This document shows, in pieces, positions 736 through 39,400 of a DNA stretch of 39,777 bases. The first letter of the stretch is position 1. Each line of letters starts with the position of its first letter. Made by a program: the position numbers and the translations under genes. Source of the stretch: Terramyces sp. JEL0728 (lineage: Eukaryota > Chytridiomycota > Chytridiomycetes > Rhizophydiales > Terramycetaceae); NCBI GenBank assembly GCA_027603945.1, contig JADIIU010000113.1, positions 1 through 39,777 of the forward strand. Reading direction: 5' to 3'. The notes under the pieces were generated by a model that did not search any database, had not been told where the DNA came from, and saw only the letters and a list, made by a program, of their open reading frames with translations.

Positions 736-740
736 AAGAA

Positions 741-1316: not shown

Positions 1317-2329
1317 TTAATCTGACCATTCTTCATACTCGTCCACCAGTACGGGTTCCAAATTAAAGTTGCTAATCATTACCACAGGGGTTTCCAGTTC
1401 AGTTTCATTGGATTCAAACTCTGAACCATCTGGTGATTTTTCAAGTCGACCTTCAGTTGCAGGTTTCCCACCAATGTGTCTAAGTGAACAATTTGGCAAT
1501 TTGCAATCAGAGCCATATTGGCAATCAAGGCTGTGCCTGTTTAGACATCTTTTCCCAAATTTGCAAAATCCATTTTCAACGAAATATCTACATGGTAAAG
1601 CGTTTCGTGGTAAATCAACGTGCATGAATCTACAAACTGCTTGAGTGCAGTGGCCTTTTTCATAGTGCCTGCAGAGAGGAGTTACATGTTCGTTCGGGTT
1701 ATGATTTAGTGGACAATTTGGTTCATTACAGTGTCCGTAAAGTAAATAACGGTAGCAGGGCGACACTTTAGTAGGGTCATGTAGCCTGTAACAGTCTGGG
1801 TCGTAGCATTTTCCTAAATTAACAAGATATACCGATCCGGTACTTTAAACAATAATTAGTTCTAATAGTTAGCATCCGTTTCTTGAAACAATCTTACTTT
1901 AATCTTGCAGGTGGTACAAATCGGGGTGATGGAATAGTAAAAGTTGGCAATTGGGGTATAAAAGGCGGCTGTTGCGGACTGTAAGACGGCGAAACCGCTG
2001 TATACGATTGCTCACCGTCAATGGCTTCCTGGTATAACACATTGGATCCTGAATATGGTTTTTTCTGTACAGAATGGCTCTTTCGAATTAGCGAGTTTCC
2101 TTTTTTAATATAAATATCGTTCGATACATTCCCGCCTGCTTTTATTAGGAAAGAATACGATTCTGGATTCTCAATAGTTGGTTTTTGCGCTTCATGTACA
2201 TTCCAAAAGTGAAAAAAATCTATAGCGTTGGCGGATGATTAGCTGAAGCAGTTTACCGAAATACTCTGAATATTCTCTGCTACTATGAATCGCTGGCTTG
2301 GCAAATCACCTGCTTCGCGAGGGAGTCAT
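1317..2329 (-). CDS. CCCH zinc-finger protein, ZC3H3/Red5-like
   Basis: At least four consecutive CCCH fingers are visible, followed by a weaker one: C-x7-C-x4-C-x3-H across the 1814-1832 splice (C-L-K-Y-R-I-G-K-C ... Y-R-L-H), then [57 protein letters not shown] and [16 protein letters not shown]. This spacing and order match metazoan ZC3H3 and fission-yeast Red5, nuclear proteins linked to mRNA 3'-end processing, export and exosome targeting. Introns read as 1814-1832 (19 nt) and 1862-1897 (36 nt, with gctaac near its end), the latter longer than the window norm. The N-terminal Pro-rich region stays open to about 2250. The ATG at 2329 needs two further introns of about 37 and 27 nt and lies only 31 bp from the divergent URA3 start, so the 5' end is tentative. 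The tail after the fingers is acidic (ends EYEEWSD). Confidence 0.8.
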
Positions 2330-2360
2330 TTCTTTCTCTTTTTTTAATCCACCAACAGTA

Positions 2361-3146
2361 ATGTCCACCTACGCTGAAAGGGCCGAATTGTACTCTAATC
2401 CAACTGCAAAGAGACTGTTATTATTAATGGATGAAAAAAAGACGAATTTATCCGTTGCAGTTGATGTTACTACAAAGAAAGAGCTATTGCACTTGGCAGA
2501 CATTCTCGGCCCTTCCATTTGCGTCTTGAAGACGCATATCGACATTGTTGAAGATTTCGATTACGATTTAGTTGAGAAATTACTGGTTTTACAAAAGAAG
2601 CACAATTTCTTGATTTTCGAAGACAGGAAATTCGCAGATATTGGAAACACAGTTAAATTGCAATATAGTAAAGGTGTCTACCGAATTGCTGATTGGGCTG
2701 ATATTACCAATGCACACCCAATTCCTGGAGAAGGCATTGTTGATGGTTTGAAAGAAGTTGGTTTGAAGAAAGGAAGGGCATTATTGATCTTGGCTGAAAT
2801 GTCTTCTGCTGGTACACTTGCCAAGGGCCAGTATAGCATAGATGCTACTGCAATGGCTGAAAAGCATCGTGATTTCTGTATTGGATTTATAGGACAAAAC
2901 CCAATCAGAGAGATTGAAGGGAAAAGTGTTCAGGATTTCATCTACATGACTCCCGGAGTAGGGCTAGTCGCAAAAGGAGATGCTCTTGGCCAGCAATATC
3001 GAACCCCTCACCAAGTCATTCATGAAAGTGGTTGTGATGTTATTATTGTTGGCAGGGGTATTTATGGATCTGGAGATGCAGTGGAAAACGCCAAACAGTA
3101 TCGGGAAGCTGGCTGGGAAGCATATCTTGCAAGATTAAAAAAATAA
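2361..3146 (+). CDS. URA3: Orotidine-5'-phosphate decarboxylase (stand-alone)
   Basis: This enzyme decarboxylates OMP to UMP, the last step of de novo pyrimidine synthesis. The 261-residue product aligns along its length with fungal Ura3: MSTYAERA start, D-V-T-T-K-K-E-L-L segment, LKTHIDI, the catalytic [14 protein letters not shown] block with its Asp-Lys-x-x-x-Asp tetrad residues, [19 protein letters not shown] and phosphate-binding IIVGRGIYG. It is not fused to orotate phosphoribosyltransferase, which is the fungal arrangement. The frame is open further upstream to 2298 but the family start is at 2361. No intron is apparent, an exception here. The stop at 3144-3146 lies inside an AATAAA. 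It converges with the proline gene 44 bp away. Confidence 0.97.
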
Positions 3147-3147
3147 A
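3142..3147 (+). terminator. AATAAA containing the URA3 stop codon
   Basis: The hexamer AATAAA contains the whole TAA stop of URA3. Assignment as a polyadenylation signal is inferred from its recurrence at the stop codons of seven other genes here. Confidence 0.5.
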
Positions 3148-3190
3148 GTGCATGAGATTTTATTAAAGCTTGGAGGATCCCTACTACATG

Positions 3191-4068
3191 TTAAAACAAC
3201 CATCTTACTTGAGCTCCGAGGATTCTGCCAAGTTCGTCGCCTCTATCACTTGCTGCTTTGACAGCTTTAGCTACTATGTCACGGAAGCCATTTGCTTCAA
3301 ACGATTCAATCGCAGCTTGAGTTGTACCTATATAAATGTAAGCTTACCATTGGGAGAAGTGACTTTTCTTCGTAGTTCCGAAGGGGAATCAGCAGAAGTA
3401 GTCAACATTTGGCCAGCACCTAAACAAGTTTGTGCTGCTAAACCTCGTGCTACAGATGCGTCCAATCCCAATTGAATACCAGCTTGTTCAAGAGCTTCCA
3501 CAAGTAAAAAGAAATAGGCTGGACCAGAACCTGAAATTCCCGTAACCACATCCAAAAGGGGTTCTTTATCTACCCAATAGGTAGCCTTTGAAATAGATTT
3601 CAATACATTCAATGCCGATTCTTTTTGGCTTTCGGTGATTGTTGGAGGAGCGTAGATTCCGGTAGCTCCTTGAGAAATGAGTGCAGGTGTGTTTGGCATA
3701 CATCGAATTATACTTGGTTCCTGAGCAGAACCCATCTTTATCCAACGAGACAAATCAGGGACGGTGATACCAGCAGCGATTGAAATAATTAATGGTTTGA
3801 ATTCCAATGCATTTTTTGAGATCCCTTCTGCAACTTGCTTCATTACCTGTGGTTTAACAGCCAATATCAGGATTGTATTTGGATGTGCTATGGTGGCATT
3901 GTTGTCTGTTGTGGTTGCAACTCCAAAGTTCTTTTCCAAACTTTGTCGTGATGGTTCGTAAGGGTCTGATACAATGATGTTTGACGCTTTGTATCCAGCA
4001 GACAATAATCCCCCAATGATGGCATTAGCCATATTGCCTCCTCCTATGAATGAAATACGTTGATCCAT
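3191..4068 (-). CDS. Pyrroline-5-carboxylate reductase
   Basis: The enzyme reduces delta-1-pyrroline-5-carboxylate to proline with NAD(P)H. The N-terminal Rossmann motif FIGGGNMANAIIGGL starts four residues after Met. Further along are AVKPQVM, RCMPNTPA and the dimer/catalytic segment GISGSGPAYFFLLVEALEQAG, followed by GLDASVARGLAAQT and SPSELRRKVTSPNGTT. The last motif is split by a 20-nt intron at 3328-3347 (gtaagcttacatttatatag); joining it gives SPNG then TTQAAIESFEANGF, the normal C-terminal signature. Spliced length is 285 residues, close to yeast Pro3 (286). An upstream in-frame ATG at 4122 would add 18 residues that are not expected for the family, so 4068 is preferred. Confidence 0.95.
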
Positions 4069-4233
4069 CAGCAAATTGGCTTGGATTGTCAACAATTTAT
4101 AGTTGTAAATGTGGCTTGACATTCAGTAGGTTCAACAGCTGATGAAACGATAATGAAATGTACTCAACAGGTTTCACTACGCCAATATGTATCAAAAACA
4201 TCAATCTCAATCAACACGCATTATATAACGACA

Positions 4234-4239
4234 TTTATT
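4234..4239 (-). terminator. AATAAA overlapping the IleRS copy A stop
   Basis: The sequence TAATAAA places the hexamer over the last two bases of the stop codon. It is identical in copy B. Confidence 0.45.
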
Positions 4240-7200
4240 AGTGTTTCACTAGAGCTAGCAAGAATTTAGATCCGTTAACAACTTGCTCTGCTTTCTTGAT
4301 CAACTTGGATTTGTCGTATTGTCCTTGCAAAATATCCTGCTTCAAATACTTGGACAGCATTTCCTTTTGTTCGCTCAGTACATTCTTTAATAGATCCCCA
4401 GCATCTTCTGTCAAAGTTACATGGTACAAAACATCGTCTGTTGCCTGCAAGCCTGCGTCCTTACGGAGCCGTTGGACACGGTTTACGACTTCTCTGGCAT
4501 GCCCTTCTTGGATCAATCCTTCGTCCAAAGCAGTGTCCAAGATAACCAGCACCTCGTTGGTAAAGTGGGCATGGTAGTTGCTGTTGGATGATTCAAAGGT
4601 TCTGGCAACCTGCAGCTCGGCACTGGTCAATTCAAATCCAGCAATAGTGATCTTTCCTGCTGCGTTGAAGCCCTTGATTTCTTCTTTGGAAACGGATGGA
4701 AGCGCTGCTGTGATGGTTCTGGCGTCCTTCTTGAATTTGGTGCCAAGGGCTTTAGCATCTGGAAGCAATTTGTAGTTGACCCCATACTTGTCTTCCTCAG
4801 CAGTGACTGTGACTAATTTGACGTTCATTTCTTCTTGGATATACGATTCGAGAGATTTTACATCTTGGTGGAACTGTCCATTTGGGTTGATGATAATCAT
4901 TTCACGACACGGAGTCTTGAGCGAAATAGTCTTTTGGTCGCGGATGAATCTTCCAAGGTCAATAACTGTCTGCATTCTGCCAACAGAGCGCTCCACTTCT
5001 TTGTTAAAGTATTCGTCCTTTGGCTCTGGGAACGGCAAAAAGTGAACGCTGCGAGTGTCTTCGGTGCTTGGAGGCAAGAACTTGCGCAGATTCTGGTACA
5101 TGGTTTCAACCATGAACGGTGCAAATGGCGCCATCAATCTACAAAGAGTGTACAAAACTTCAAACAGCACATTCAAGGCTCTACCTGCATCCTCAACCCC
5201 ATTTTCTCCCTTGAGACGCTTACGGTTCAAGCGAATATACCAGTTCGTTAAAGTGTCAATCAAAGTCAACAGTCTAGGAGTAACCGTGTACAATCTGTAA
5301 GCATCCATCTCTTTTCGCACAAACTGGATCAAGCTTTGTGTAGAAGCAAGAATCCACCTGTCCATGACATTGGCATCCTTCATATCCATGTGCGGGTTAT
5401 ACACAAAATTAAAGTCGTGCTCCTTCTTTAACAGTGCCAACTGTCCAAACAGGAAACGGTACGAGTTGAACCATGGCAGCATAACCTTGGAAACCATCTC
5501 CTTGACACTTTCTTCTCTGAATCTAACATTTTCAGCCCGAACTCCTGCAGAAGTCATCAAGAATAATCTAGCATAAGTGATCCTCTTACCTCAAAGAATC
5601 TGCGCCGAATTCCTCCAACACAATCCCTGGATCTGGATAATTCTTTTTGCTTTTACTCATCTTCTGTCCATCTGATGCCAACACAAGCCCATTCACAATA
5701 ATGTTTTTCCAAGCTGGCTTATCAAACAAGTGTGTGGAAAGAACCATCAAAGTATAGAACCAACCACGCGTTTGATCGATACCTTCAGCAATGAAATCTG
5801 CAGGGAAAGACTGGTCAAATTCTTCCTTGTTCTCAAACGGATAGTGCTTTTGGGCATAAGGCATGCTGCCACTTTCAAACCAACAGTCAAACACTTCTGG
5901 GATACGGCGCAACACTCCTTTGCCGGTCTTTGAAGGGATAGTAAGATGGTCAATCTTGTCACGATGAATATCTGTAATAGTGTAATCTCCCGTCAATTCG
6001 TGCAGCTGTGCAATGGATTCGATTACTACAATTTCTTCAAAGTCTTCACTGATCCATAACGGAATTGGAGTACCCCAGTATCTAGATCTAGATATATTCC
6101 AGTCTCTGGCGTTGGCCAGCCAGTTGTGGAATCTCTTTTCCTTGACATTTTCTGGAACCCTACTATCAACAATACTTACCAGTAAGTTTGCTCGTTGTTT
6201 TTGCATAATTTGTCAACAATTGGTGCGACTCTGACAAACCACGCCGGCACAGCTTTGTACATCAACGGACGTCCCGACCTGTAGCAGAATGGATAGCTGT
6301 GCGTGTATTGGGACTGGCGAATGAGACGTCCCTTGGCTTTCAAGTCTTTTTGGATTGGCTTGTCTGCATCTTTAAAGTTCATCTTGGCATATGGCGGAAC
6401 TTCGTCGGTAAAGTTTCCACTGTTGTCGACCGGACACGGAAGATCGTCCTCTCCAGCAATAATCTTTTGTTCAGTGCAAATGCGGTAATCGTCTTCACCA
6501 AATGCCGGTGCTTGGTGGACAATACCGGTACCACTATCACTGGTTACATAGGCGTCGGTGACAACTTTGAACGACTGTCCTTTTCTCTAAAGTTATATAT
6601 AATTACATGAGCGAAAAAGTCAAACAGAGGTTCGTATTCCAGTCCTTTGAGAGCTGCTCCCTTCATCTTTTCCAACACTGCATATGTTTTGTCCTTCTTT
6701 TTCAGCTCTGCAGCTGTGTACAGAATATCCAAACGTGCTTCCATTAAAATAAAGATTGCTCCTGTCTTTTCATCCTTGATTTTCACATAGTCCAATTCAG
6801 GATGCACACAAAGCGCTAAATTAGACGGCAATGTCCATGGGGTAGTAGTCCATGCAATCAATGAGACCGAAGGGTCTGATACCAGTGGGAAAGAAACAAC
6901 TACAGCTGGATCTGTGACATCTCTGTAGTCCAAACCTGCTTCAAAATTTGATAATACAGTGCTGCAATACCACGAGTATGGCATGATTCGGAATCCTCTG
7001 TAAACTTGATCTTTCTTGTACAGCTGGGAAAATACCCACCAAATCGATTCCATGAAAGTAGGATCCAAAGTTTTGTAATCATTCTTGAAATCAATCCATC
7101 TGCCGATTCGCGTAATGGTATTTTCCCACTCATTAGCATAAGTCATGACAATTGAACGACAGAGTTCATTGTATTTTGGGATACCCATTTTAGCAACATC

Positions 7201-7563
7201 GTCCGGCCCTCTGATATTGTGAGCCTTGTCAATTTCGTATTCGACTGGTAGGCCATGCGTATCCCAGCCGTTTCTTCGTTCAACATAATGGCCAGTTGCA
7301 TGAGCATATCTGGTGACTACATCCTTAATAGTGCCAGCGAGCAGGTGGCCATAGTGAGGTAGCCCGGTTGCGAATGGCGGACCTATATTTAGTCGATCAG
7401 TACCATCGTAAAAGTTGAACTTTTTCCTTCCTTTAGATAACTCTACGGATGTTCTGAATGCATCGATTTCTTTCCAGAAGGCGAGTACTTTGTGTTCTTC
7501 CTCTGGGAAAGAGACATTTGTAGGGACTAGAATTAATTCGTCGGTACTTTCTGGGATATCCAT
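4238..7563 (-). CDS. ILS1: Isoleucyl-tRNA synthetase, cytosolic eukaryotic type, copy A
   Basis: It charges tRNA-Ile with isoleucine. The class I motifs are present: HIGH as HYGH within [17 protein letters not shown], and KMSKS within [31 protein letters not shown] and the editing-domain segment [20 protein letters not shown] are also intact. Four introns: 7383-7403 (21 nt, stop-free), 6587-6606 (20 nt), 6160-6179 (20 nt) and 5568-5589 (22 nt). Removing them gives 1,080 residues, near yeast Ils1 (1,072). The first intron, if retained, inserts seven residues into the otherwise invariant FYDG-PPFATG junction. An in-frame ATG at 7608 would add a basic leader, MRFFLHLFKRRIHNR, resembling a mitochondrial presequence; it lies outside the duplicated segment. 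Relative to copy B the protein differs by Ala/Thr in VTD[A/T]YV and Thr/Ala in KDK[T/A]YA. Confidence 0.97.
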
Positions 7564-7768: not shown

Positions 7769-8573
7769 TCAAATCGCTACGTATTGATTGTTACCTCGCA
7801 ATCTGGAAACTAAACTGGAAATGAAATCCTAGTATTACAAATGATTACCCAAATTGTGCACCACAAAGCAACCCAGAAATCAGAGTGAGGTAAAATATTA
7901 GGAAAGCGCGTTTCTAAATAAAAGAATGATTACCTCCCTTTATCACGTAATTTCCGACACTTCCTATAGCGAAATATGCAAAAAGTCCTCCAATCGCATA
8001 GTAAAAGAGAGATGCTACAATATTTGAAGAACTTGAAGGTTCAGCTCCCTTTTTTCCACAGCCAACCGCGTGTTCCCAACTCAAAATAACCTGATCGTCG
8101 CTAAATGATGTAATAGATGGCATTGAATCCTACATAAATGATATTGTACAGTCACACCATTCTTGCACTTGATATCCAATACAACAGACCCTTTTGTGGC
8201 GGCTACTTTTAATCGTAGGCCATCTGCAATACTTGATATTTGTGGTTCAGAACTTCCCAGTGGTTTTACAGATGTGACTCTAGGATCCCCTCCTTTTATA
8301 TTCCGGATTAATCTACAAGCCCATGTTCCCTCTGGACAAAAATCTTCTTTAGCAATTCCAGAGTCGCTAATAGCATTGCAGAAATTGAGACTTAATTCAA
8401 CTCTGTCCTCGCTGATTTCTTCGTGTTTGACTGTTTGCAATGTAATATTCTGTGATCTGAATTAACCAAAATTACTTTGCGAATAGCGCACTGATATTAT
8501 ACCCTAAATCATTTATATTTATTTGATTGCAGCTGTAAGCGAAGGCGGTAATGCAGAGTAAGTGGAATTTCAT
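7769..8573 (-). CDS. MRH-domain type I membrane protein, Atg27/mannose-6-phosphate-receptor-like
   Basis: This is a predicted sorting receptor of the Golgi/endosome/vacuole system. The spliced 241-residue protein begins with a signal peptide (MKFHLLCITAFAYS), then a Cys-containing luminal region with GYNISALFAK, CPEGTWACRL and the domain-closing VILSWEHAVGC. One membrane segment follows (about NIVASLFYYAIGGLFAYFAI), then a short cytosolic tail with NYVIKGETRFPNILPHSDFW, which resembles the conserved tail start of Atg27 and small M6P receptors. Introns: 8457-8475 (19 nt), 8130-8149, 7914-7933 and 7829-7848 (20 nt each); with these the CDS is an exact multiple of three. The last intron is the least certain, and without it the protein ends a few residues after the DFW motif. 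Whether it is Atg27 or Mrl1-like cannot be settled by eye. It is divergent from Sec61 with 236 bp between the starts. Confidence 0.78.
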
Positions 8574-8809: not shown

Positions 8810-10336
8810 ATGTCTTCATGTAAATCACTTGCTTACCCTAGTTCGATTGTTGCATATATTAAAGCCGTTCATCTCGCTTGTGCCTGAAATCTCTTCCCCA
8901 GATAGAAAGGTTTTTACTGTATAATTATAGGTTCAATTCAGGGAAAAAGTTATGTGGACTGCAATCACATTGTTCATTTTCTTGGTATGTTCACAAATTC
9001 CATTGTACGGTATCATGTCTTCAGAGTCTGCTGATCCAATGTACTGGATGCGTGTTATTATGGCTTCAAACAGAGGTACGCTGATGGAGTTGGGTATCAC
9101 TCCAATTGTGTCCTCAGGAATGATTATGCAGCTTTTAGCTGGCGCAAACATCATCGAAGTCGATTATTCGTTAAAGGAAGATCGTGCCCTTTTCTCTGGT
9201 GCCCAAAAATGTAAGAATTATTTGATCAAGTATTTGCAATGGTTATCGCTGTTGGTCAAGCTACTGCTTCTGTGTGGTCTGGAGTTTATGGCAACCCATC
9301 TGATATTGGTGCAGGTATTGCCTTGCTACTTGTATTGCAATTGTGCTTTGCAGCCTTGATTACCATGTTGTTGGATGAACTTTTACAGAAAGGCTACGGT
9401 CTTGGTTCGGGAATTTCTTTGTTCATTGCAACCAATATTTGCGAAACTATTATCTGGAAAGCATTCAGTCCAATTACTTACAACACTGGAAGAGGTAATT
9501 CTAATTTCACAGTAGGAACTGAGTTTGAAGGTGCAGTCGTTGGATTATTCCATTTGCTATTCACTAGAAACGATAAATTCAGAGCCATCAAAGAAGCAAT
9601 GTACCGCACCAACCTCCCAAACTTGTCCAGTCTTTTGGGAACCATTTTCATCTTTGCCGTTGTTATTTACTTGCAAGGGTTCCGTGTTGAAATCCCGGTT
9701 AAATCCAACAGAATGCGTGGGCAACAAGGCTCTTACCCTATCAAATTGTTTTACACTTCCAACATGCCTATCATGCTCCAGTCTGCCTTAGTTTCCAACA
9801 TCTTTTTTGTTTCGCAAATGCTGTTCAAGAGATTCCCAGATAACTTTTTTATCCGTTTGTTGGGTGTATGGAGTAACGAAGAAGGCGTCCCAACTGATTT
9901 TGCGTCGTCTGGATTCGCTTATTACATTTCTCCTCCACACAGCATCTCTGATGCGCTTGCTGATCCTGCCAGATTTGCCGTATACGTTGCATTTATGTTG
10001 ACTGCGTGTGCTCTTTTCTCAAAGACTTGGATTGAAGTTTCTGGGTCTTCTCCTCGTGATGTCGCCAAGCAATTAAAAGATCAGCAATTGGTTCTTAGAG
10101 GACACCGCGAAGATTCAATGTACAAGGAATTGAAGAAAGTGATTCCAACTGCCGCTGCGTTTGGTGGCCTTTGTATCGGAGCCCTCTCTGTTGCTGCCGA
10201 TTTATTAGGTAACTAGTTATTAAATGTAGGCGCTATTGGTTCTGGTACTGGTATCCTACTTGCTGTAACCATCATTTACCAATACTTTGAAATCTTTGTC
10301 AAGGAACAATACGAAGAAGGAATGGTTGCTCTTTAA
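8810..10336 (+). CDS. SEC61: Sec61 alpha, ER protein translocation channel
   Basis: This is the pore subunit of the ER translocon. The spliced product is about 473 residues (family 470-480) and starts [20 protein letters not shown], then [26 protein letters not shown] and [29 protein letters not shown] and [21 protein letters not shown] follow, with [24 protein letters not shown] near the C-terminus and [11 protein letters not shown] at the end. Introns: 8820-8841 (22 nt), 8910-8930 (21 nt, donor GTTTTT), 9211-9230 (20 nt), 9495-9515 (21 nt, stop-free) and 10209-10229 (21 nt). The first coding exon is only 10 nt. The fourth intron would insert NSNFTVG into the conserved NTGRG-TEFEG sequence if not removed. 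An AATAAA follows the stop by four bases. Confidence 0.97.
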
Positions 10337-10448
10337 AGAAATAAATTCTAATTTCTAATCTTTAAACCGATCTTGGATTCTATTTATTATACTGCAAAAT
10401 ACGCGTAACACCACATTACGAAGACTTCCATACAAGAACTCCCTGGAT

Positions 10449-28946: not shown

Positions 28947-30641
28947 ATGACAGCTGAAAAATCAATATTCAAAAACCCAAATGCTGGGAAACCACTGGAC
29001 GAATCCGAAATAGATTATCTCAAACTCACTTTGACCGCCAGAGTATACGACGTATGCATCGAAACCCCGCTGCAAAAAGCAGTTGGTCTTAGTTCAAGAC
29101 TAGGAAATACAATTCTTTTAAAACGAGAGGATTTGCAACCGGTATTTTCTTTCAAATGCAGAGGAGCTTACAACAAAATGGCACACTTGAGTGAAACTGA
29201 AAAGAGGAGTGGAGTAATTGCTTGCTCAGCTGGAAATCAGTAATAGAAATTAATTCAGTGCACAGGGTGTAGCATTAGCAGCTTCAAAGCTGGGGATCCA
29301 GTCTACTATTGTAATGCCTTCAATGGCACCTCCAATCAAGTGGAAAAATGTTCAGAGACTTGGAGGATCGGTGTTATTGCATGGAAACGATTTTCAAGAA
29401 TCAAAGGATGAGTGTGAACGACTGTGCAAAGTAATTTTTGGATAATATCAGATCAAAGGAGTGACAAATATCCCGCCCTATGACGATCCACTAGTTATCG
29501 CTGGACAAGGCACAATCGGCGTCGAAATCCTTAGACAGTATATATTCCTGATGTAGATATGATGCCTCTAAAATCGACGCTATCTTTGTTTGCGTTGGAG
29601 GCGGTGGATTGATTACAGGGATTGCTGCTTATGTCAAAAAATTATATCCAAAGATAAAGATTATTGGTGTGGAAACATTTGATGCAAATGCAATGACTGA
29701 GTCTCTATTGGCCGGAAAGAGAGTGAATTTGGATCAAGTAGGTTTGTTTGCAGACGGTGCAGCAGTTAGAAATATTGGTGTGGAGCCTTTTAGAATAGCA
29801 ACTTCTTTAGTAGATGAAATGGTTTTGGTTGATACTGATGAGCTATGCGCAGCCATTAAAGATGTATTTGAGGATACTAGAGCTATCTTGGAACCTGCCG
29901 GGGCATTAGCTGTAGCGGGAGCAAAGAAATACCTTCAAATGAATAGCGTTACTGGTGGGACATATGTTGCTACTTGCAGGTAATCATTGCTAAGCGTAGC
30001 GGTGCGAATATGAACTTTGATAGACTCAGATTTGTCGCTGAGCGAGCAGATCTTGGAGAAAATACTGAAGCATTGATTAGTGTAATAATTGCAGAAAAAC
30101 CAAACAGCTTCCTCCAGTTGTATGAGTGTGTTTTCCCTCGATCCGTTACTGAGTTTGCATACAGATACGGAGATAAGGACAATGCGCACATATTCATGTC
30201 GCTCAACTTGAAAGATAGACAAAGAGAACTGCCTGAAATCATCCAAAAATTGTCAGAGAAAGGAATGAAGGCTATAGATGCCAGCCATAATGAAATGGCG
30301 AAAGCTCATGCTAGATATTTGATTGGAGGAAGAAAAGACGTAAAACAAGATTAACTCTAGGTTCCTGATGAAAGACTATTTAGATTTGCATTCCCAGAAA
30401 GACCCGGTGCTCTTGCTCACTTTCTGAAATCTTTAAACAATCCAAAGTGGAACGGTAAGAAATATCTAAAACAGTCTCATTATTCCACTACCGCAATGAT
30501 GGGGGTGATGTTGGCAAAGTGATGGTTGGAATACAAGTACCCGCAGAAACATCAGAAGAATTCTCTACTTTCTTGAGTGAGTTAAAGTATCCATTCGTAG
30601 AAGAAACAGAAAATATCGTCTACCAGCAATTCCTGAAATAA
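28947..30641 (+). CDS. ILV1: Threonine ammonia-lyase (threonine deaminase), biosynthetic
   Basis: This is a PLP enzyme that converts threonine to 2-oxobutanoate, the first step of isoleucine synthesis, normally mitochondrial. The catalytic-domain signatures are [20 protein letters not shown], the PLP-lysine motif [41 protein letters not shown] preceded by the phosphate-binding VCVGGGG, and [12 protein letters not shown]. After [11 protein letters not shown] come two ACT-like regulatory domains ([40 protein letters not shown]), the long feedback-regulated form. Introns: 29240-29258 (19), 29431-29451 (21), 29538-29556 (19), 29980-29999 (20), 30340-30360 (21) and 30455-30474 (20). Spliced length is 524 residues. 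No strong mitochondrial presequence is visible at [14 protein letters not shown]. Confidence 0.96.
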
Positions 30642-31456: not shown

Positions 31457-32696
31457 TAATCGGAGCACCTTTAACACTCTTGACCGTGACAGCGCCTTTA
31501 TCGGATTTAAGGAGGGCTTCTTTACCATCTAACACAATCGATGCTTCGAGTTTTTGACTAGTGATTAGGTTTGGTTGTAAATTTTCCCACACCTTCTGCT
31601 TTGGTTTCAACTGTTCATCTGGTTCTCCTGCCGTCAAAAAAGGTTACCTTTATGTCCGTCAAAGTAGCATCTGTCACCAGGTTTGGCTCCTGCAGGGGGA
31701 ATTAAACATTCAACTGTATTTCCATCTTGAGAGGTGGCACAGAGGACCATAGCTTGCGATTCAATGCCGCGCATCTTGGCTGGTTTCAAGTTGCATAGTA
31801 AAACTACTGACTTGCCATTCAAGTCTGCTTCTGACATGTATTTTACTAGCCCACTAACAACAGTTCTAGGTTGGTCTTCTCCAAGATCAATTTGCTCAAC
31901 AAAAAGCGATTCTGCATCTGGATGGCGTTCAACTGATAGAATTTTACCGACTCTGATATCTAAACGCGCTGGATTTAGTCTGGCAGGAGCAGCTTGGATT
32001 AATTTCGACATACCATCTTTCTTTGGTTCATTCTTCTTTTCAGCCGGCTTTTCATCCTTCTTGATTTCGTTGGCTTTACCTTTATCTTGCTTTGCTTCTT
32101 CCTTGCCTTTTTTATCACCTCCTTTTACTTTGGTCTCCTTGACAGGCACAGCTTTTGCTACAAATGGCACATCCAAGTCAAATTCGGTAATTTCCAATCC
32201 AACGGAATCTGCCATTTCACCTACTAAATGTTGGATCAAGTCAAAATAGCGAACTACGTTTGGATTCTCTTTTCTATCCTGTGGTAATAAAGCAACATTG
32301 TATAAGGTTGAATAAAGAGCGATATCAGCCAGAGTGAATTGGTTTGTAGCGACATATACTTTTTGTTCCAAGATATTGTTTAATTCACTGAATGCTGCAT
32401 TGCGATCCGCTTCGAATTTTTGTTTCCATGTCTTTCCAGAGTCTAATCCCCATTGAAATACAGAGACTTGCTCTTCTTCGGTGCGTCCCAATAAATCTGT
32501 GAGTGACGCTGCCTTTAATAGATGCTGGGAAATAGCGAACGAACCAACAATTTGCTGGCCATCAACAGTTAATGAAGATGATTCCTATAGTAAATTATAA
32601 ACTTGCATCAACTAATTTGAAATTGGCGAATTTCGTATTGGCGAATGCTCGGGCAATTCGTACAGTTAAATCTTTCTTTCCAACTACCAATGACAT
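31452..32696 (-). CDS. Arc1/AIMP1-like tRNA-binding aminoacyl-tRNA synthetase cofactor
   Basis: This is a predicted cofactor that binds tRNA and docks aminoacyl-tRNA synthetases (MetRS and GluRS in yeast Arc1). The 400-residue product has a GST-like N-terminal part (FAISQHLLKAASLTDLLG; NQFTLADIALYSTLYNVALL), a Lys-rich linker (GGDKKGKEEAKQDKGKANEI), then an EMAP-II-type tRNA-binding domain: LDIRVGKILSVERHPDAESL, RTVVSGLVKYMSEADLNGKS, LLCNLKPAKMRGIESQAMVL, and KPKQKVWENLQPNL near the end. Introns: 31628-31647 (20 nt, GT-AG) and 32585-32606 (22 nt, GC-AG with the strong GCAAGT donor). Only the GC-AG solution keeps phase at a typical length, and it gives an exact multiple of three. Yeast Arc1 is 376 residues. 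Confidence 0.92.
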
Positions 32697-32830: not shown

Positions 32831-33092
32831 TAGACTGAAACTCTTTCAAGGGCTTCCATAATAGTAATAGAGTTTCCGCGAATAACGACAGATCCAATCT
32901 GTTTGGTTTCAGTATCAGAAATGATTTCGATCGTATTTTCCAAAACAATGTTCATGAATGGATCAAACCCTCTCAACACTCCAATCACTCTTCTGTTTCC
33001 GTTTAACTGAAGTGACAGCTTTTTGTCCAGATATCTTTGGTTAGAAATGAGTACCGTTTTAATTCAGGAGTGTGAGTTTTTATGTTTGTCAT
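32830..33092 (-). CDS. SMX2: Small nuclear ribonucleoprotein G (SmG)
   Basis: This is a spliceosomal Sm-ring subunit. The short CDS of 80 residues is split by one 20-nt intron at 33035-33054 (gtactcatttctaaccaaag). The spliced protein reads HTPELKRYLDKKLSLQLNGN, then RRVIGVLRGFDPFMNIVLEN (Sm1, with the SmG-typical GFDPFMN), and IGSVVIRGNSITIMEALERV (Sm2). It is too short and too split to show as a long ORF. It is itself part of the machinery that must recognise the miniature introns of this genome. Confidence 0.95.
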
Positions 33093-33249: not shown

Positions 33250-34257
33250 TCATCTTTTATAAATATAATATCTAAAGGTCAATGTGTGCTTTTCAATCCA
33301 CTCATCATGCTCCAGGATCCAGCCTTCGCTAATCATATTTTCTTGGAACTGCTGGATTTCTTTTCTAAATTTGATTCTATGAGGCAAAAGCACATGGAAT
33401 CTAGCGCTTGGGTCTTTGGACAAGTAATGCTTTGATACTTTTGGTACCAGTTCGCTGTGCATCATGTCAAAAATACAATCGGCAGCGATAATCATTTTCC
33501 AATCTGTGTTACGGAAGACTGAATCTTCTTGATCGCTGCCTTCCATATGCCATCTCCAATCCAGCGGCAAACAACACACTTTTTCCGACAGTCCATTCGA
33601 TTCAATATTCTTTACTGCATTGGAAATGACAACTGGGTGATAGTCCGACATGACAGTGTATTTTGCACCAACTCGGCCACATACCAATCCTGCTAATCCT
33701 GTACCACTCCCCAGTTCCAATATATCTTGATCTTTAACATCAATCTTTCCTTCATCGATATACCTACATTAAAAACAAGTACTTGGCTAGCAGGATACCT
33801 CCTCCCCAAGTTTGAAATCCAATTTCAGCTTCGGTAAACGAAGTCTCTTTTAAATCAATGACACCTGCATTTTTGAATTCAAAGCGAGAAACGGTTTCGC
33901 CAGTTGCTTGGTTAATAAATAAATACCAATCCTACCGCATAATTGTGCCATTATATTCGCAATTTCATCCATGAATTCAGCTTCATTGCACCCTTCAGGT
34001 GGTCTGTTCATTAAACTAACCAGCCAAGGTGTAGCATGCCTTTGTAGCAATGAAAGTCCTTTTGGGGAGAAGCTGTCAATCACCTGGTCATTTTCCTCGT
34101 CTGTATTTCCGACCATGTATGATTTGTTTTTGGAATTGAAGTGGATTTTAGTCAATTCTTTGAGCCATGTGAGCGCATCCCTAACCTGATTGTAATCCTT
34201 TTTATTACAATCAAATAGAAAATCAACCAAGTCCTGTGTTTCTTGAATTAGATCCAT
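33250..34257 (-). CDS. Protein-lysine methyltransferase, METTL21/EFM2-like (Methyltransf_16 type)
   Basis: This is a predicted seven-beta-strand SAM-dependent lysine methyltransferase; in fungi such enzymes modify eEF2 and eEF3. The 322-residue spliced product has a helical N-terminal region, then TGETVSRFEFKNAGVIDLKE, SFTEAEIGFQTWGGGILLAK, motif I DILELGSGTGLAGLVCGRVG, VMSDYHPVVISNAVKNIESN, and DWKMIIAADCIFD. The fungal EFM2/Rrg1 family carries similar TxxxxGxxTWxxxxxLA and LELGxGTGL motifs, but the exact orthologue is unclear. Introns: 33907-33926 (20) and 33764-33782 (19). The CDS is a multiple of three after splicing. Confidence 0.85.
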
Positions 34258-34335
34258 TATTAGTTGGGGTTTGACAAAAAAAATATTTTCAAGTTGTTGA
34301 TGGCACGTTGGGACAGAATAAGAAATGAAATCAGG

Positions 34336-34341
34336 TTTATT
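34336..34341 (-). terminator. AATAAA containing the DAHP synthase stop
   Basis: AAATAAAC: the TAA stop is wholly inside the hexamer. Confidence 0.5.
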
Positions 34342-35813
34342 TGAAATGCTCCGCTATTCTGAATGCAATATCTAACGATTGTTCATAGTTTAGTCTACAT
34401 AAGAATTATATTACCTTGGATCGCAGTAAGTTTGATAGTTTTTACTTAAATCGCTTTCCTTCAAATTGATGGACCCGCCAAGAGTTTCGGTTACTGGATC
34501 TCCAGTAAGTTCACAATGAACCCCGCCCAATCTAGAGTCGTTTTCTTTGTGGATTATGAACGCTTGTGTCATTTCAGAGATGATATTCTCGACCCTCCGT
34601 GTTTTCAATCCAGTAATTGTTGATTCTGTATTTCCATGCATGGGATCACAACACCATACCACTTTGTGTTTAGAAGCTTGAACTGCTTTAATGTGCGCAG
34701 GGAGATATTGTCTAATTTTTTCAGTGCCATAGCGAGTGATCAATGTTACTTTTCCTACTTCAAAGTTTGGATTTAAAATATCCAATAATGGAACCAATTC
34801 TTCTGGTTTCATCGATGGCTCGACTTTGACACCAATCGGGTTTTCAATCCCTCTAAAGTATTCAACATGTCCTCCGTCCAACTGTCTAGTACGATCGCCA
34901 ATCCACAAGTAGTGTGTTCCCAAGTTATAGTACTTTTGTCCATCCCCAGTCTTTGATTTGACCAATTTTGTAAATTGCGCTTCGTAGTCCAAGAGTAACC
35001 CTTCGTGAGACATGAAAAGGTCCACATTCTTGGTAGCACTATCAGCATCAGAGTCTGCGCCAATGGTACGCATAAAGTCCATCGCACTCATCAAATCATT
35101 CACAATTTCCTGGTACCGTTTCTTTACATCATCATTTTCAACATGACGAAGTGTCCAGTATTCAGATTGTAAATTCCATGATTCCGGATGGTGCAAGTCT
35201 GCAAATTCAGATGAAAGCAACGCACGAACATAGTTTAGGGTAGCTGCAGAATGGAAATATGCAGATAATAATCTTTCTGGATCTGGTGTGCGTTGATCCA
35301 ATTCAATTCCGTTAACCTAGCGTTAATGTCAAGTACGTTATCGCCGCGGAATGAGTTGTAGGTTTTTCCATCAATAACTTCAGTAGGACTTGAACGTGGT
35401 TTTGCATACTGTCCTGCCATTCTAGCAATACGCACGATCGGAGTTCTAGCCCCCCATACGAGAATTAATGACATTTGTAACAATACTTTAAGTTTGTCTT
35501 CAATTGGTTGCTGTGTTAATTCAAATTTTACTGTTGAACAATAATCGAATAATTCTGCACAGTCACCACCCTGTAGTAAAAATCTCTTGTTCTCTGCGAC
35601 TTCTGCCAAATATTTACGCAGTTTATCAATCTACTTTAACTGGAATTTTACTTCCCCTGATGACACCAATGGTGGTAAACTGGACAGTTTGTTCAAAACG
35701 GTTTCGACTTTTTGTTGATCTTTGTACACTACTTCCTGCTTGACAAAGTAATTCTTGTATGATGTTGGCGTCCAATTATTTGGGGCAGTCATTTTAATTT
35801 TTTCCCCATCCAT
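34337..35813 (-). CDS. DAHP synthase, class II (plant/fungal/actinobacterial type)
   Basis: It condenses phosphoenolpyruvate and erythrose 4-phosphate, the first step of the shikimate pathway. Class II signatures are present: FLLQGGDCAELFDYC with the metal-binding Cys, LKVLLQMSLILVWGARTPIV, GQYAKPRSS, SFRGDNVNGIELDQRTPDPE, HYLWIGDRTRQLDGGHVEYF, NPIGVKVEPSM, and WCCDPMHGNT with the metal-binding His. Introns: 35631-35651 (21), 35511-35531 (21, stop-free), 35317-35336 (20) and 34395-34414 (20). The spliced protein is 464 residues, the class II length. The stop-free intron would add VKFELTQ between CST and QPIEDKLKVL. An alternative ATG at 35792 removes seven residues. Class II enzymes in fungi occur beside unrelated class I paralogues. 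Confidence 0.96.
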
Positions 35814-36420
35814 TCTTTTTTATATAAAAATTTGCGTCGACTTTATTTTACGTGTGGCTAGACTTGAGGTAATTTGTCAAGCGCAAATCGCATTTTGATA
35901 AACCCGCCAGCACACAGCAGGTCGGCGATTAAGAATTCACAATTGCAAGCAGTATTGCGAGTAAAATGGTGTATACTAGACATTTTCAGCTGCACAAACT
36001 ATGTGACTCACTCGATATTTGGAGATGAGAGGTTGCGCTAGTCATGGCATTTGAAGATAATCTCCTCGACGAACTATTACTACGATAAATTAAAAATTAC
36101 TTGATAGATATGATTAACTGGTCAATGCTTTCACATTGGCATAGATGCTGGTGATTTCAATTGAAATTGAGAGGACAGAGTTCACATTCTGATGCAAGGA
36201 GGCAGAATAATTGTATTAGCATTAATAAGTATGGAATATTTAAAGCAATAAAGTCAGCTAACAAGGAAACTTAAGGAGGCAGATTTACCATTACACCCTG
36301 TGGAAATCATTTAAGGAAGGACGCGGAAATTTGGAAATGAGTGGAATGGGCAAGAATATTTGGATGACTCGTCTGAGGTTTACCAAACATAAAAGCTTGT
36401 TGGAAAAATCATGGAAAAAA
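35814..36420. other. Divergent intergenic region DAHP synthase / IleRS copy B (607 bp)
   Basis: I see no recognisable gene or RNA. The last 90 bases (from 36331) are open in phase with IleRS copy B and would encode a basic leader including MTRLRFTKHKSLLEKSWKK. This sequence shares no similarity with the region upstream of copy A. Confidence 0.6.
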
Positions 36421-39400
36421 ATGGATATCCCAGAAAGTACCGACGAATTAATTCTAGTCCCTACAAATGTCTCTTTCCCAGAGGAAGAACACAAAGTACT
36501 CGCCTTCTGGAAAGAAATCGATGCATTCAGAACATCCGTAGAGTTATCTAAAGGAAGAAAAAAGTTCAACTTTTACGATGGTACTGATCGACTAAATATA
36601 GGTCCGCCATTCGCAACCGGGCTACCTCACTATGGCCACCTGCTCGCTGGCACTATTAAGGATGTAGTCACCAGATATGCTCATGCAACTGGCCATTATG
36701 TTGAACGAAGAAACGGCTGGGATACGCATGGCCTACCAGTCGAATACGAAATTGACAAGGCTCACAATATCAGAGGGCCGGACGATGTTGCTAAAATGGG
36801 TATCCCAAAATACAATGAACTCTGTCGTTCAATTGTCATGACTTATGCTAATGAGTGGGAAAATACCATTACGCGAATCGGTAGATGGATTGATTTCAAG
36901 AATGATTACAAAACTTTGGATCCTACTTTCATGGAATCGATTTGGTGGGTATTTTCCCAGTTGTACAAGAAAGATCAAGTTTACAGAGGATTCCGAATCA
37001 TGCCATACTCATGGTATTGCAGCACTGTATTATCAAATTTTGAAGCAGGTTTGGACTACAGAGATGTCACAGATCCAGCTGTAGTTGTTTCTTTCCCACT
37101 GGTATCAGACCCTTCGGTCTCATTGATTGCATGGACTACTACCCCATGGACATTGCCGTCTAATTTAGCACTTTGTGTGCATCCCGAATTGGACTATGTG
37201 AAAATCAAGGATGAAAAGACTGGAGCAATCTTCATTTTAATGGAAGCACGTTTGGATATTCTGTACACAGCTGCAGAGCTGAAAAAGAAGGACAAAGCAT
37301 ATGCAGTGTTGGAAAAGATGAAAGGTGCAGCTCTCAAAGGACTAGAATACGAACCTCTGTTTGACTTTTTCGCTCATGTAATTATATATAACTTTAGAGA
37401 AAAGGACAGTCGTTCAAAGTTGTCACCGACACCTATGTAACCAGTGATAGTGGTACCGGTATTGTCCACCAAGCACCGGCATTTGGCGAAGACGATTACC
37501 GCATTTGCACTGAACAAAAGATTATTGCTGGAGAGGACGATCTTCCGTGTCCGGTCGACAACAGTGGAAACTTTACCGACGAAGTTCCGCCATATGCCAA
37601 GATGAACTTTAAAGATGCAGACAAGCCAATCCAAAAAGACTTGAAAGCCAAAGGACGTCTCATTCGCCAGTCCCAATACACGCACAGCTATCCATTCTGC
37701 TACAGGTCAGGACGTCCGTTGATGTACAAAGCTGTGCCGGCGTGGTTTGTCAGAGTCGCACCAATTGTCGACAAATTATGCAAAAACAACGAGCAAACTT
37801 ACTGGTAAGTATTGTTGATAGTAGGGTTCCAGAAAATGTCAAGGAAAAGAGATTCCACAACTGGCTGGCCAACGCCAGAGACTGGAATATATCTAGATCT
37901 AGATACTGGGGTACTCCAATTCCGTTATGGATCAGTGAAGACTTTGAAGAAATTGTAGTAATCGAATCCATTGCACAGCTGCACGAATTGACAGGAGATT
38001 ACACTATTACAGATATTCATCGTGACAAGATTGACCATCTTACTATCCCTTCAAAGACCGGCAAAGGAGTGTTGCGCCGTATCCCAGAAGTGTTTGACTG
38101 TTGGTTTGAAAGTGGCAGCATGCCTTATGCCCAAAAGCACTATCCGTTTGAGAACAAGGAAGAATTTGACCAGTCTTTCCCTGCAGATTTCATTGCTGAA
38201 GGTATCGATCAAACGCGTGGTTGGTTCTATACTTTGATGGTTCTTTCCACACACTTGTTTGATAAGCCAGCTTGGAAAAACATTATTGTGAATGGGCTTG
38301 TGTTGGCATCAGATGGACAGAAGATGAGTAAAAGCAAAAAGAATTATCCAGATCCAGGGATTGTGTTGGAGGAATTCGGCGCAGATTCTTTGAGGTAAGA
38401 GGATCACTTATGCTAGATTATTCTTGATGACTTCTGCTGGAGTTCGGGCTGAAAATGTTAGATTCAGAGAAGAAAGTGTCAAGGAGATGGTTTCCAAGGT
38501 TATGCTGCCATGGTTCAACTCGTACCGTTTCCTGTTTGGACAGTTGGCACTGTTAAAGAAGGAGCACGACTTTAATTTTGTGTATAACCCGCACATGGAT
38601 ATGAAGGATGCCAATGTCATGGACAGGTGGATTCTTGCTTCTACACAAAGCTTGATCCAGTTTGTGCGAAAAGAGATGGATGCTTACAGATTGTACACGG
38701 TTACTCCTAGACTGTTGACTTTGATTGACACTTTAACGAACTGGTATATTCGCTTGAACCGTAAGCGTCTCAAGGGAGAAAATGGGGTTGAGGATGCAGG
38801 TAGAGCCTTGAATGTGCTGTTTGAAGTTTTGTACACTCTTTGTAGATTGATGGCGCCATTTGCACCGTTCATGGTTGAAACCATGTACCAGAATCTGCGC
38901 AAGTTCTTGCCTCCAAGCACCGAAGACACTCGCAGTGTTCACTTTTTGCCGTTCCCAGAGCCAAAGGACGAATACTTTAACAAAGAAGTGGAGCGCTCTG
39001 TTGGCAGAATGCAAACAGTTATTGACCTTGGAAGATTCATCCGCGACCAAAAGACTATTTCGCTCAAGACTCCGTGTCGTGAAATGATTATCATCAACCC
39101 AAATGGACAGTTCCACCAAGATGTAAAATCTCTCGAATCGTATATCCAAGAAGAAATGAACGTCAAATTAGTCACAGTCACTGCTGAGGAAGACAAGTAT
39201 GGGGTCAACTACAAATTGCTTCCAGATGCTAAAGCCCTTGGCACCAAATTCAAGAAGGACGCCAGAACCATCACAGCGGCGCTTCCATCCGTTTCCAAAG
39301 AAGAAATCAAGGGCTTCAATGCAGCAGGAAAGATCACTATTGCTGGATTTGAATTGACCAGTGCCGAGCTGCAGGTTGCTAGAACCTTTGAATCATCCAA

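Follow-up and report, generated by a model that had tools for sequence, protein, structure and literature searches.

Spliceosomal introns of 15–16 nucleotides (nt) are described in the ciliate Stentor coeruleus (PMC9505925), of 16–17 nt in mikrocytids and of 18–21 nt in chlorarachniophyte nucleomorphs (both PMC10245619). Among fungi, Cryptococcus neoformans, which ranked highest of those compared in PMC11913375, has introns averaging 56 nt; that paper terms introns below 60 nt ultra-short and includes a 20–40 nt bin. Here we report that predicted ultra-short introns of 19–22 nt are the sole intron class detected in the genome of the chytrid Terramyces sp. JEL0728 (Rhizophydiales), as far as sampled. 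These lengths are near the shortest in any organism and far below those of well-studied fungi, as the initial annotation of this DNA had supposed. Among the literature matches listed, none describes introns of this kind for a fungus outside the microsporidia.

Stentor introns are likewise described as tiny, AT-rich and unimodal in length, with GT–AG ends and a 5-nt tail after the branch A; the commonest starts with GUAAUU, and most spliceosomal proteins are kept (PMC9505925). They differ in having the branch A at nucleotide 10–11, as against 14–15 predicted in Terramyces, and in occurring in 18% of the ciliate's genes, as against 101 of the 141 genes modelled here. The tail being about 5 nt in both and the 5′ arm differing by 4–5 nt, each arm appears to have a limit of its own. 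Mikrocytid introns likewise vary very little in length and lie among the shortest, but their hosts are described as reduced parasites with 224 introns and 17–19 identified spliceosomal proteins (PMC10245619), whereas introns are common in Terramyces and only U6 was missed of seven splicing components sought. The nucleomorph length range is nearly equal, but belongs to the relic nucleus of an endosymbiont (PMC10245619) and not to a 15.0 Mb fungal nuclear genome. Cryptococcus neoformans is also an intron-rich fungus with short introns, some of 20–40 nt having been analysed (PMC11913375); its average contrasts with a mode of 20 nt in Terramyces, where we detected no class of longer introns.

A fungus with named isolates (JEL numbers denote cultures) thereby joins the organisms with the shortest sets of spliceosomal introns known. 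This would separate tiny introns from reduction of the genome or the spliceosome, and offers a system for comparing, within a single fungal order, what limits how small an intron can be.

Intron lengths

We sampled 21 contigs, comprising 239,777 bases (240 kb) of the 15.0 Mb genome. In a motif-free test, candidate stretches of 10–120 nt were defined by their end dinucleotides only, and their removal had to join two coding stretches in frame. GT–AG joins at 19, 20 and 21 nt numbered 57, 76 and 35 in the 239,777 bases, against control means of 14.5, 12.3 and 3.5, and a clear GT–AG excess was seen at these three lengths only. Six other dinucleotide pairs gave no excess at 19–21 nt in the same 240 kb. 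Joins with a GTA donor and AG end numbered 48, 65, 29 and 14 at 19, 20, 21 and 22 nt. In-frame joins bearing a splice consensus numbered 148 at 19–22 nt, none at 10–18 nt (the consensus cannot score below 12 nt) and, between 23 and 419 nt, roughly one at each length. Gene models with a flat length prior of 14–60 nt placed 245 of 287 introns at 19–22 nt. Because these same data served to train the consensus, the modelled-length, branch, hidden-intron, GTA-donor and consensus-join results are partly circular; the motif-free test does not depend on it. Within the 240 kb and the length limits of these tests, the introns form a single length class below about 25 nt, as in ultra-short intron genomes, and the 19–22 nt stretches are confirmed as predicted introns, genome-wide as far as sampled.

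The window, one whole contig of 39,777 nt, holds 78 predicted introns (Table 1), 67 from gene models and 11 from alignments, reading frame and the hidden-intron scan; the initial annotation had counted about 65. One is 18 nt long, 17 are 19 nt, 34 are 20 nt, 21 are 21 nt and five are 22 nt. The 18–22 nt range proposed earlier holds for 19–22 nt and is doubtful at 18 nt, where there is a single weak case (32585-32602). Introns that had been named in IleRS (37378-37397 and 37805-37824) and Sec61 (9211-9230) are found at just those places.

Protein continuity and hidden introns

Alignments cover 28 of the 32 introns in six conserved genes (Sec61, CCT2, DAHP synthase, ILV1, IleRS and eIF3m), and none contradicts removal; with the intron out, junction gaps are at most one residue. 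Once spliced, the Sec61 product and its Boothiomyces counterpart match along 473 of 473 residues. The two IleRS copies are inverted and near-identical (99.2% over 3357 bases), and their introns therefore do not count as independent cases. Of 17 junctions in the largest gene, HDV01_000789, the depositors' protein bears out 14, as does each of two Boothiomyces proteins for 14 of the 17.

Some 21-nt introns lack an in-frame stop and read as seven extra residues, and escape frame-based reading. The hidden-intron scan placed 18 such stretches in sense and none in antisense orientation. Two Boothiomyces annotations carry a 7-residue insert at one shared site (20338-20357), which fits 21-nt introns. 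In practice, those deposited proteins of Terramyces and Boothiomyces that we examined appear to retain stop-free introns of this length as 7-residue inserts.

Table 1 Predicted introns of the window by position, with three further stop-free candidates outside the list of 78 at the end; for HDV01_000789, relatives' proteins denotes the comparison with the depositors' protein and with those of relatives.
Gene	Length (nt)	Position	Strand	Evidence and remarks
CCCH zinc-finger	19	1814..1832	-	gene model; domain match
P5C reductase	20	3328..3347	-	gene model; domain match
IleRS copy a	22	5568..5589	-	gene model; junction spanned by alignment
IleRS copy a	20	6160..6179	-	gene model, alignment
IleRS copy a	20	6587..6606	-	gene model, alignment
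IleRS copy a	21	7383..7403	-	stop-free, before PPFATG motif; gene model, alignment
IleRS copy a	21	7527..7547	-	stop-free candidate; hidden-intron scan score 10.5; outside alignment
ATG27-like	20	7829..7848	-	gene model; domain match
ATG27-like	20	7914..7933	-	gene model
ATG27-like	20	8130..8149	-	gene model
ATG27-like	19	8457..8475	-	gene model
Sec61	22	8820..8841	+	gene model; Boothiomyces Sec61 match
Sec61	21	8910..8930	+	gene model, alignment, Boothiomyces Sec61 match
Sec61	20	9211..9230	+	gene model, alignment, Boothiomyces Sec61 match
Sec61	21	9495..9515	+	gene model, alignment, Boothiomyces Sec61 match
Sec61	21	10209..10229	+	gene model, alignment, Boothiomyces Sec61 match
small gene	21	10443..10463	-	gene model
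small gene	20	10602..10621	-	gene model
small gene	19	10706..10724	-	gene model
eIF3m	22	10926..10947	+	gene model; outside alignment
eIF3m	20	11099..11118	+	gene model, alignment
eIF3m	21	11252..11272	+	gene model, alignment
eIF3m	20	11749..11768	+	gene model, alignment
eIF3m	20	11980..11999	+	gene model, alignment
CCT2	20	12180..12199	-	gene model, alignment
CCT2	19	12442..12460	-	gene model, alignment
CCT2	21	13147..13167	-	stop-free, GTGATC donor; 7-residue insert relative to closest CCT2 structure; hidden-intron scan
CCT2	21	13561..13581	-	alignment, hidden-intron scan
CCT2	20	13694..13713	-	gene model, alignment
CCT2	21	13780..13800	-	alignment
CCT2	19	13870..13888	-	directly 3′ of start codon; frame and consensus; outside alignment
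KH_6-domain	21	14319..14339	-	gene model; domain match
DEAD_2 helicase (Chl1 in initial annotation)	19	15160..15178	+	gene model; domains
DEAD_2 helicase	19	15358..15376	+	gene model, low score
DEAD_2 helicase	20	16000..16019	+	gene model; DEAD_2 domain unbroken across
DEAD_2 helicase	20	16108..16127	+	gene model; DEAD_2 domain unbroken across
DEAD_2 helicase	20	17474..17493	+	gene model
HDV01_000789	21	17558..17578	-	hidden-intron scan; deposited protein agrees
HDV01_000789	19	18420..18438	-	gene model, relatives' proteins
HDV01_000789	20	18505..18524	-	gene model, relatives' proteins
HDV01_000789	20	18918..18937	-	probable GT-GG; frame-equivalent 18920-18939 tested; Boothiomyces JEL0838 aligns across; single case
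HDV01_000789	21	19097..19117	-	stop-free, VISSNFQ in deposited protein; hidden-intron scan; 7 residues absent from 4 of 4 relatives
HDV01_000789	21	19244..19264	-	gene model, relatives' proteins
HDV01_000789	19	19733..19751	-	gene model; agreement with both Boothiomyces, nearby difference in deposited model
HDV01_000789	20	19979..19998	-	gene model, relatives' proteins
HDV01_000789	20	20338..20357	-	gene model, relatives' proteins; 7 extra residues here in Boothiomyces models
HDV01_000789	21	20673..20693	-	gene model, relatives' proteins
HDV01_000789	20	20869..20888	-	gene model, relatives' proteins
HDV01_000789	20	22049..22068	-	gene model, relatives' proteins
HDV01_000789	19	22164..22182	-	gene model, relatives' proteins; 4-residue gap in Boothiomyces
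HDV01_000789	20	22529..22548	-	gene model, relatives' proteins
HDV01_000789	20	23518..23537	-	gene model, relatives' proteins
HDV01_000789	19	24241..24259	-	gene model, relatives' proteins
HDV01_000789	19	24749..24767	-	gene model, relatives' proteins
RhoGAP	19	26421..26439	-	gene model; domain match
RhoGAP	19	26527..26545	-	gene model
Myb-domain	22	27411..27432	-	gene model; domain match
Myb-domain	20	27898..27917	-	gene model; weak branch motif
ILV1	19	29240..29258	+	gene model, alignment
ILV1	21	29431..29451	+	gene model, alignment
ILV1	19	29538..29556	+	gene model, alignment
ILV1	20	29980..29999	+	gene model, alignment
ILV1	21	30340..30360	+	gene model, alignment
ILV1	20	30455..30474	+	gene model, alignment
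Arc1-like	20	31628..31647	-	gene model; tRNA_bind and Arc1p_N_like domains
Arc1-like	18	32585..32602	-	doubtful candidate; gene model, low score 6.2
LSM-domain (SmG in initial annotation)	20	33035..33054	-	frame and consensus; spliced protein matches LSM domain 2-65 of 66
methyltransferase	19	33764..33782	-	gene model; domain match
methyltransferase	20	33907..33926	-	gene model
DAHP synthase	20	34395..34414	-	gene model, alignment
DAHP synthase	20	35317..35336	-	gene model, alignment
DAHP synthase	21	35511..35531	-	stop-free; 7-residue insert in alignment; hidden-intron scan
DAHP synthase	21	35631..35651	-	gene model, alignment
IleRS copy b	21	36437..36457	+	stop-free candidate; hidden-intron scan; copy of 7527-7547
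IleRS copy b	21	36581..36601	+	stop-free; gene model; copy of 7383-7403
IleRS copy b	20	37378..37397	+	gene model, copy comparison
IleRS copy b	20	37805..37824	+	gene model, copy comparison
IleRS copy b	22	38395..38416	+	gene model, copy comparison
	21	11474..11494		stop-free candidate; hidden-intron scan
	21	15812..15832		stop-free candidate; hidden-intron scan
	21	31993..32013		stop-free candidate; hidden-intron scan

Intron anatomy

In the 240 kb, the introns have a GTAATT-like donor (A at +3 in 92.5%, A at +4 in 57.5%, T at +5 in 47%) and a YTAAY branch motif, and most of them end in TAG. The predicted branch A lies at nucleotide 14–15 and is followed by a tail of 5 or 6 nt, AG included, in 284 of 309 modelled introns. 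A branch motif close to the AG had been noted before, with a spacing of 4–10 nt that we revise to 3–4 nt. By sequence comparison, the motif fits GUAGUA in the U2 RNA that this genome encodes.

The ends are those of U2-type introns, only GT–AG being in excess among seven pairs, with one probable GT–GG exception. U12-type introns have AT–AC ends, or a GTATCC donor with a TTCCTTAAC branch. We rejected this class: AT–AC joins at 19, 20 and 21 nt numbered 23, 18 and 7, with no peak comparable to that of GT–AG, and the donors are GTAATT-like.

Origin of the 19–22 nt stretches

We interpret these stretches as spliceosomal introns of U2 type that have shrunk to a minimum of 19–22 nt, the only class detectable here, each composed of two minimal arms flanking the branch A, and put the probability of this reading at about 95%. 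Removal by the spliceosome, like the branch position, is what we infer from the sequence. The spliceosome would presumably assemble across some 20 nt by intron definition, the first arm running 14–15 nt from the initial G up to the branch A and the second a further 5–6 nt to the last G; the lariat would have a loop of 14–15 nt and a tail of 5–6 nt, and spliceosome geometry may set the length floor.

Translational bypassing is known from Magnusiomyces mitochondria. If the stretches stayed in the mRNA and were skipped by the ribosome, the frames would join exactly, as they do; but the GT–AG ends, the branch-like motif at a fixed distance, the missing excess for six other dinucleotide pairs and the presence of splicing components make this extremely improbable. 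Equally hard to credit are elements deleted at the DNA level, and so absent from expressed DNA, or assembly indels. Although the assembly is a draft with near-identical repeats, the consensus is directional on the coding strand, as the sense bias of the hidden introns shows, a 7-residue insert lies at the same site in two Boothiomyces annotations, and errors would not yield GT–AG stretches of 19–22 nt.

Splicing of tiny introns could also be real while ordinary longer introns, unseen by frame joining, are numerous as well. The motif-free test ends at 120 nt and only the short-intron consensus was applied beyond, so longer introns with another consensus could escape, and small single-length excesses occur, such as 12 joins at 27 nt where the control mean is 5.7, not distinguishable from chance. 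Nevertheless, the background of consensus joins above 22 nt is flat, and neither the aligned conserved genes nor HDV01_000789 required a longer intron, which makes a numerous longer class unlikely.

Splicing machinery

Six of the seven splicing components sought were found: a U2 RNA gene with GTAGTA (140 bits), Prp8, SF1, U2AF65, Slu7 and Prp18. The losses of U2, U2AF or SF1 suggested by the initial annotation are therefore not supported. A reduced spliceosome, true of mikrocytids but not of Stentor and hence no strict hallmark of ultra-short intron genomes, is not indicated by the components sought, which include Slu7 and Prp18 for step two and SF1 and U2AF65 for the branch. Searches of the genome did not find U6, whose gene may lie in an assembly gap, be interrupted or have diverged.

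The Terramycetaceae spliceosome might be specialized to a fixed two-arm intron (14–15 plus 5–6 nt), with the +5G rule relaxed to GTAATT, GG allowed as 3′ splice site and the donor-pairing box of U6 changed; ordinary-length fungal introns may splice poorly. A changed box would explain the failed U6 searches; we regard this specialization as unlikely.

Ultra-short introns also occur in the genes of the five splicing proteins modelled. Taking four predicted introns out of U2AF65 raises its score from 251.7 to 333.8 bits, above the family cut-off of 310.3. Counting against our interpretation, as does the failure to find U6, U2AF65 is kept, yet the introns leave no room for a pyrimidine tract between branch and AG.

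Short GT–AG joins exceed chance

Frame-restoring GT–AG joins are concentrated at 19–21 nt in this chytrid genome, as judged by a motif-free test that, unlike counts derived from a splice consensus, is not circular. In this test, GT–AG was compared with six other dinucleotide pairs using the end dinucleotides only, and a join was counted where removal made the best coding frame of six continuous and read-through was blocked. Across 239,777 bases, comprising the window and one 10-kb stretch from each of 20 other contigs, GT–AG gave 57, 76 and 35 joins at 19, 20 and 21 nt, against six-pair means of 14.5, 12.3 and 3.5; at 22 nt there were 22 joins against a control mean of 16.2. No comparable peak was seen at any other length from 10 to 120 nt in this sample, where single lengths showed at most slight surpluses over the controls (for example, 12 versus 5.7 at 27 nt). 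With a GTA donor, the joins at 14 to 26 nt numbered, in order, 4, 1, 1, 4, 3, 48, 65, 29, 14, 3, 0, 5 and 2.

Consensus-derived counts, which are partly circular, have the same range. Joins scoring at least 8 numbered 148 at 19–22 nt, 34 at 23–59 nt and 371 at 60–419 nt (about 1 per length), with none at 10–18 nt, a range in which lengths below 12 nt are unable to score. When all intron lengths from 14 to 60 nt were given equal prior weight, the gene model placed 245 of its 287 introns at 19–22 nt. The gene finder used initially, which combined iterated training with a low penalty on introns, called 1,525 introns, a gross overcall, and was replaced by a stricter one. The conservative models hold 312 introns in 141 genes, 101 of which have at least one. 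This density of 1.61 introns per kb of coding sequence is lower than that of two Chytridiomycota for which the accessible part of PMC8476143 gives 3.93 per kb, although the methods differ.

Anatomy of the introns

Donor and acceptor statistics were taken from 308 modelled introns of 19–22 nt. The upstream exon ends in AG or AA, and the donor is GTA, with A in 92.5% at +3 and 57.5% at +4; position +5 is T in 47.4% and G in only 18.8%, and +6 is T in 52.6%. The commonest donor hexamer is GTAATT (40 of 308), and the introns end in TAG (208), CAG (66), AAG (27) or GAG (7). A motif fit to 309 introns of 18–22 nt predicts a YTAAY branch motif, with 151 introns having 5 nt after the branch A and 133 having 6 nt. 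The predicted branch A lies at nucleotide 14, followed by 5 nt, in 62 of the 73 19-mers; 20-mers are divided between 15+5 (77) and 14+6 (73), and 21-mers are mostly 15+6 (48 of 62). The two arm lengths are roughly independent, observed and expected counts differing by up to 15 per cell. The A+T content is 70% in introns and 59.6% in exons.

Protein alignments across junctions

Spliced products of Sec61, CCT2, DAHP synthase, threonine deaminase ILV1, IleRS (copy a only) and eIF3m were aligned with solved homologues. The printed alignments cover 28 of the 32 introns in these six genes and, read by eye, contain no junction gap of more than one residue after intron removal. Among the four introns outside them, the one in Sec61 is backed by the Boothiomyces protein, to which the spliced Sec61 is 98% identical over all 473 residues. 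Two of the 28, introns of 21 nt in CCT2 and DAHP synthase, appear as clean 7-residue inserts when left in.

Positions of the genes, introns and repeats discussed
Feature	Position	Strand	Remark
Largest gene	24893 to about 17520	−	17 junctions
IleRS copy a	4207–7563	−	
IleRS copy b	36421–39777	+	
21-nt intron, CCT2	13147–13167		hidden candidate, alignment support
21-nt intron, DAHP synthase	35511–35531		hidden candidate, alignment support
21-nt intron, largest gene	19097–19117		hidden candidate, alignment support
Hidden candidate	13561		alignment support
Hidden candidate	17558		alignment support
Hidden candidate, eIF3m	11474		alignment compatible with either reading
20-nt intron, largest gene	20338–20357		7 extra residues in Boothiomyces
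Probable GT–GG intron, largest gene	18918–18937		GTAACAGAAAATTAACTTGG
31-nt intron, rejected	18909–18939		removal breaks frame
Intron candidate, IleRS	7527		outside printed alignment
Intron, Sec61	8820		outside printed alignment
Intron, eIF3m	10926		outside printed alignment
Intron, CCT2	13870		outside printed alignment
Degenerate tandem repeat	1–850		ETVVEE-like coding units
Short repeated motif	14760–14900		intergenic

The product of the largest gene shares 97% identity with the protein HDV01_000789 from Terramyces sp. JEL0728 (Chytridiomycota, Rhizophydiales, Terramycetaceae), and the next-closest proteins, at 84% and 82% identity, come from Boothiomyces, a genus of the same family. For URA3, also in the window, the best named relatives are chytrids. 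Of the 17 junctions in the largest gene, 14 match the depositors' protein and 14 match each of the two Boothiomyces proteins. The deposited protein differs near 19733, where a stretch is missing, at 19097, where it keeps VISSNFQ, seven residues absent from all four relatives, and at 18918, where it adopts another solution. Gaps or inserts in Boothiomyces relative to the spliced protein fall at 22164 and 20338 in both strains; JEL0866 has a further one at 18918, and JEL0838 one at 22529. Both proteins also have a gap of 1–2 residues near 17558.

The sequence at 18918 is probably a GT–GG intron, as its removal preserves the frame common to Boothiomyces JEL0838. A sequencing error is a possible alternative; GTA–GG joins show no surplus at 19–21 nt (4, 4 and 0).

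Candidate stop-free 21-nt introns within modelled exons

A scan for intron-like sequences of 15–25 nt, with a minimum score of 9, covered the 193,488 exon bases of the conservative models. It gave 18 candidates of 21 nt in the sense orientation and none in antisense, the pattern expected where no permitted length other than 21 is divisible by three. Every other length gave 0 or 1 sense and 0 to 4 antisense candidates, the antisense total being 17. Alignments support five of the 18, and two of the 18 represent one site, present in both IleRS copies. We saw no depletion of stop-free 21-nt introns when the shares with an in-frame stop were compared across lengths: 43 of 73 modelled 19-mers, 83 of 150 modelled 20-mers and 47 of 62 modelled 21-mers, the last becoming 47 of 80 with the 18 hidden candidates, 13 of them unsupported by alignment.

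Public Terramyces and Boothiomyces protein models (P0241, P0242 and P0243) contain 7-residue inserts resembling retained 21-nt introns. Such inserts could be used to detect tiny introns in annotated proteomes.

Probable sharing with relatives

At the 20-nt intron at 20338, the seven extra residues of the Boothiomyces annotations are GIVYSNL and GNQLLNL; Terramyces, Kappamyces and Globomyces lack them. A 21-nt GT–AG sequence whose branch A has a 5-nt tail could code for either heptapeptide. With branch tails of 4 to 7 nt allowed, an intron of this form could encode only 132 of the 9,107 seven-residue windows in four related proteins (two Boothiomyces, Kappamyces and Globomyces). From these sequences we infer that the inserts are 21-nt introns left unspliced in the annotations, so the trait, on the evidence of the Boothiomyces proteins, probably predates the split between Terramyces and Boothiomyces. 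VTYLSFTRQ, nine residues inserted in Globomyces JEL0801, was considered as a retained 27-nt intron; it did not fit the consensus, and the trait is not claimed for Globomyces.

Splicing machinery

The initial annotation expected losses of U2, U2AF or SF1; matches to all three are present in the genome (15,016,339 bases, 231 contigs). U2 RNA scores 140 bits and has the usual GTAGTA. Matches were also found for Slu7, Prp18 and Prp8, and the gene models at these loci and at those of U2AF65 and SF1 carry introns of the same kind. For U2AF65, removing four predicted introns of 19–20 nt raises the score from 251.7 bits in the raw genome to 333.8 (cut-off 310.3). The SF1, Slu7 and Prp18 domains exceed their cut-offs both raw and with introns removed, and Prp8 does so in the raw genome. 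The Prp18 model stops early, covering domain positions 3–99 of 143, and the SF1 model ends past the KH domain, an end that may be cut by the gene model.

U6 was not found in the genome by six profile, sequence and pattern searches, although U2 is present. Matches to Rfam RF00026 at 27 bits were two near-identical spurious repeats (48 of 1,328 first-look candidates were scored). When at most 3 mismatches were allowed, a 19-mer of the U6 box matched 6 times versus 3 in the control; a looser box gave 7 versus 5 and a 3′ stem pattern 3 versus 0; a 99-nt mammalian U6 query and an intron-split pattern gave none. Thirteen scanned loci with U6 patterns (L023–L028 and L041–L047) had no Rfam match at the gathering score, and L046 had none up to E = 1; three looser-box matches had no locus of their own, one of them coinciding with scanned locus L028. 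No RNA family reached the gathering score in the window or in 13 of the 10-kb stretches (L003–L015). The two contigs carrying the U6-like false match, C199 and C111, are nearly identical by eye over the 300 bases viewed around it in each, which suggests a repeat, a second haplotype or a duplication.

Proposed mechanism and comparison with known systems

A standard U2-type spliceosome would recognise the donor and the branch across about 20 nt and would use an acceptor AG 3–4 nt past the branch A. The tight arms and the lack of lengths below 19 nt suggest a physical floor on intron length. This floor is higher than that of Stentor, whose branch A lies at nucleotide 10–11 with a 5-nt tail according to the accessible part of PMC9505925, and the difference resides in the 5′ arm. 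The commonest Stentor intron described there also starts with GUAAUU, a likeness that hints at convergence.

Introns of 15–25 nt are known from heterotrich and other ciliates, mikrocytids, nucleomorphs and Trichomonas (accessible parts of sources including PMC10245619 and PMC9505925). A 2025 paper, in its accessible part, defines ultra-short introns as those below 60 nt, includes a 20–40-nt bin and ranks C. neoformans, with an average of 56 nt, highest among the fungi compared (PMC11913375). Among the matches listed, with subscription literature mostly outside reach, there was no report of such an intron set in a chytrid or other non-microsporidian fungus. Because both genome and annotation are publicly available, and most of the junctions are already present in the one deposited protein compared, the novelty lies in recognising the pattern and not in the sequence facts themselves. 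The genome paper for the strain is presumably Amses et al. 2022.

IleRS pair and repeats

The IleRS gene occurs twice in inverted orientation, with 99.2% identity over 3357 bases; none of the 28 mismatches falls within the four introns compared. Because the contig ends inside this repeat, the pair could reflect either a genuine duplication or an effect of the assembly graph. Two further repeats were noted by eye: the tandem repeat at the start of the window includes disrupted stretches, and the intergenic motif centres on gactagctc / tatcccaatgactag.
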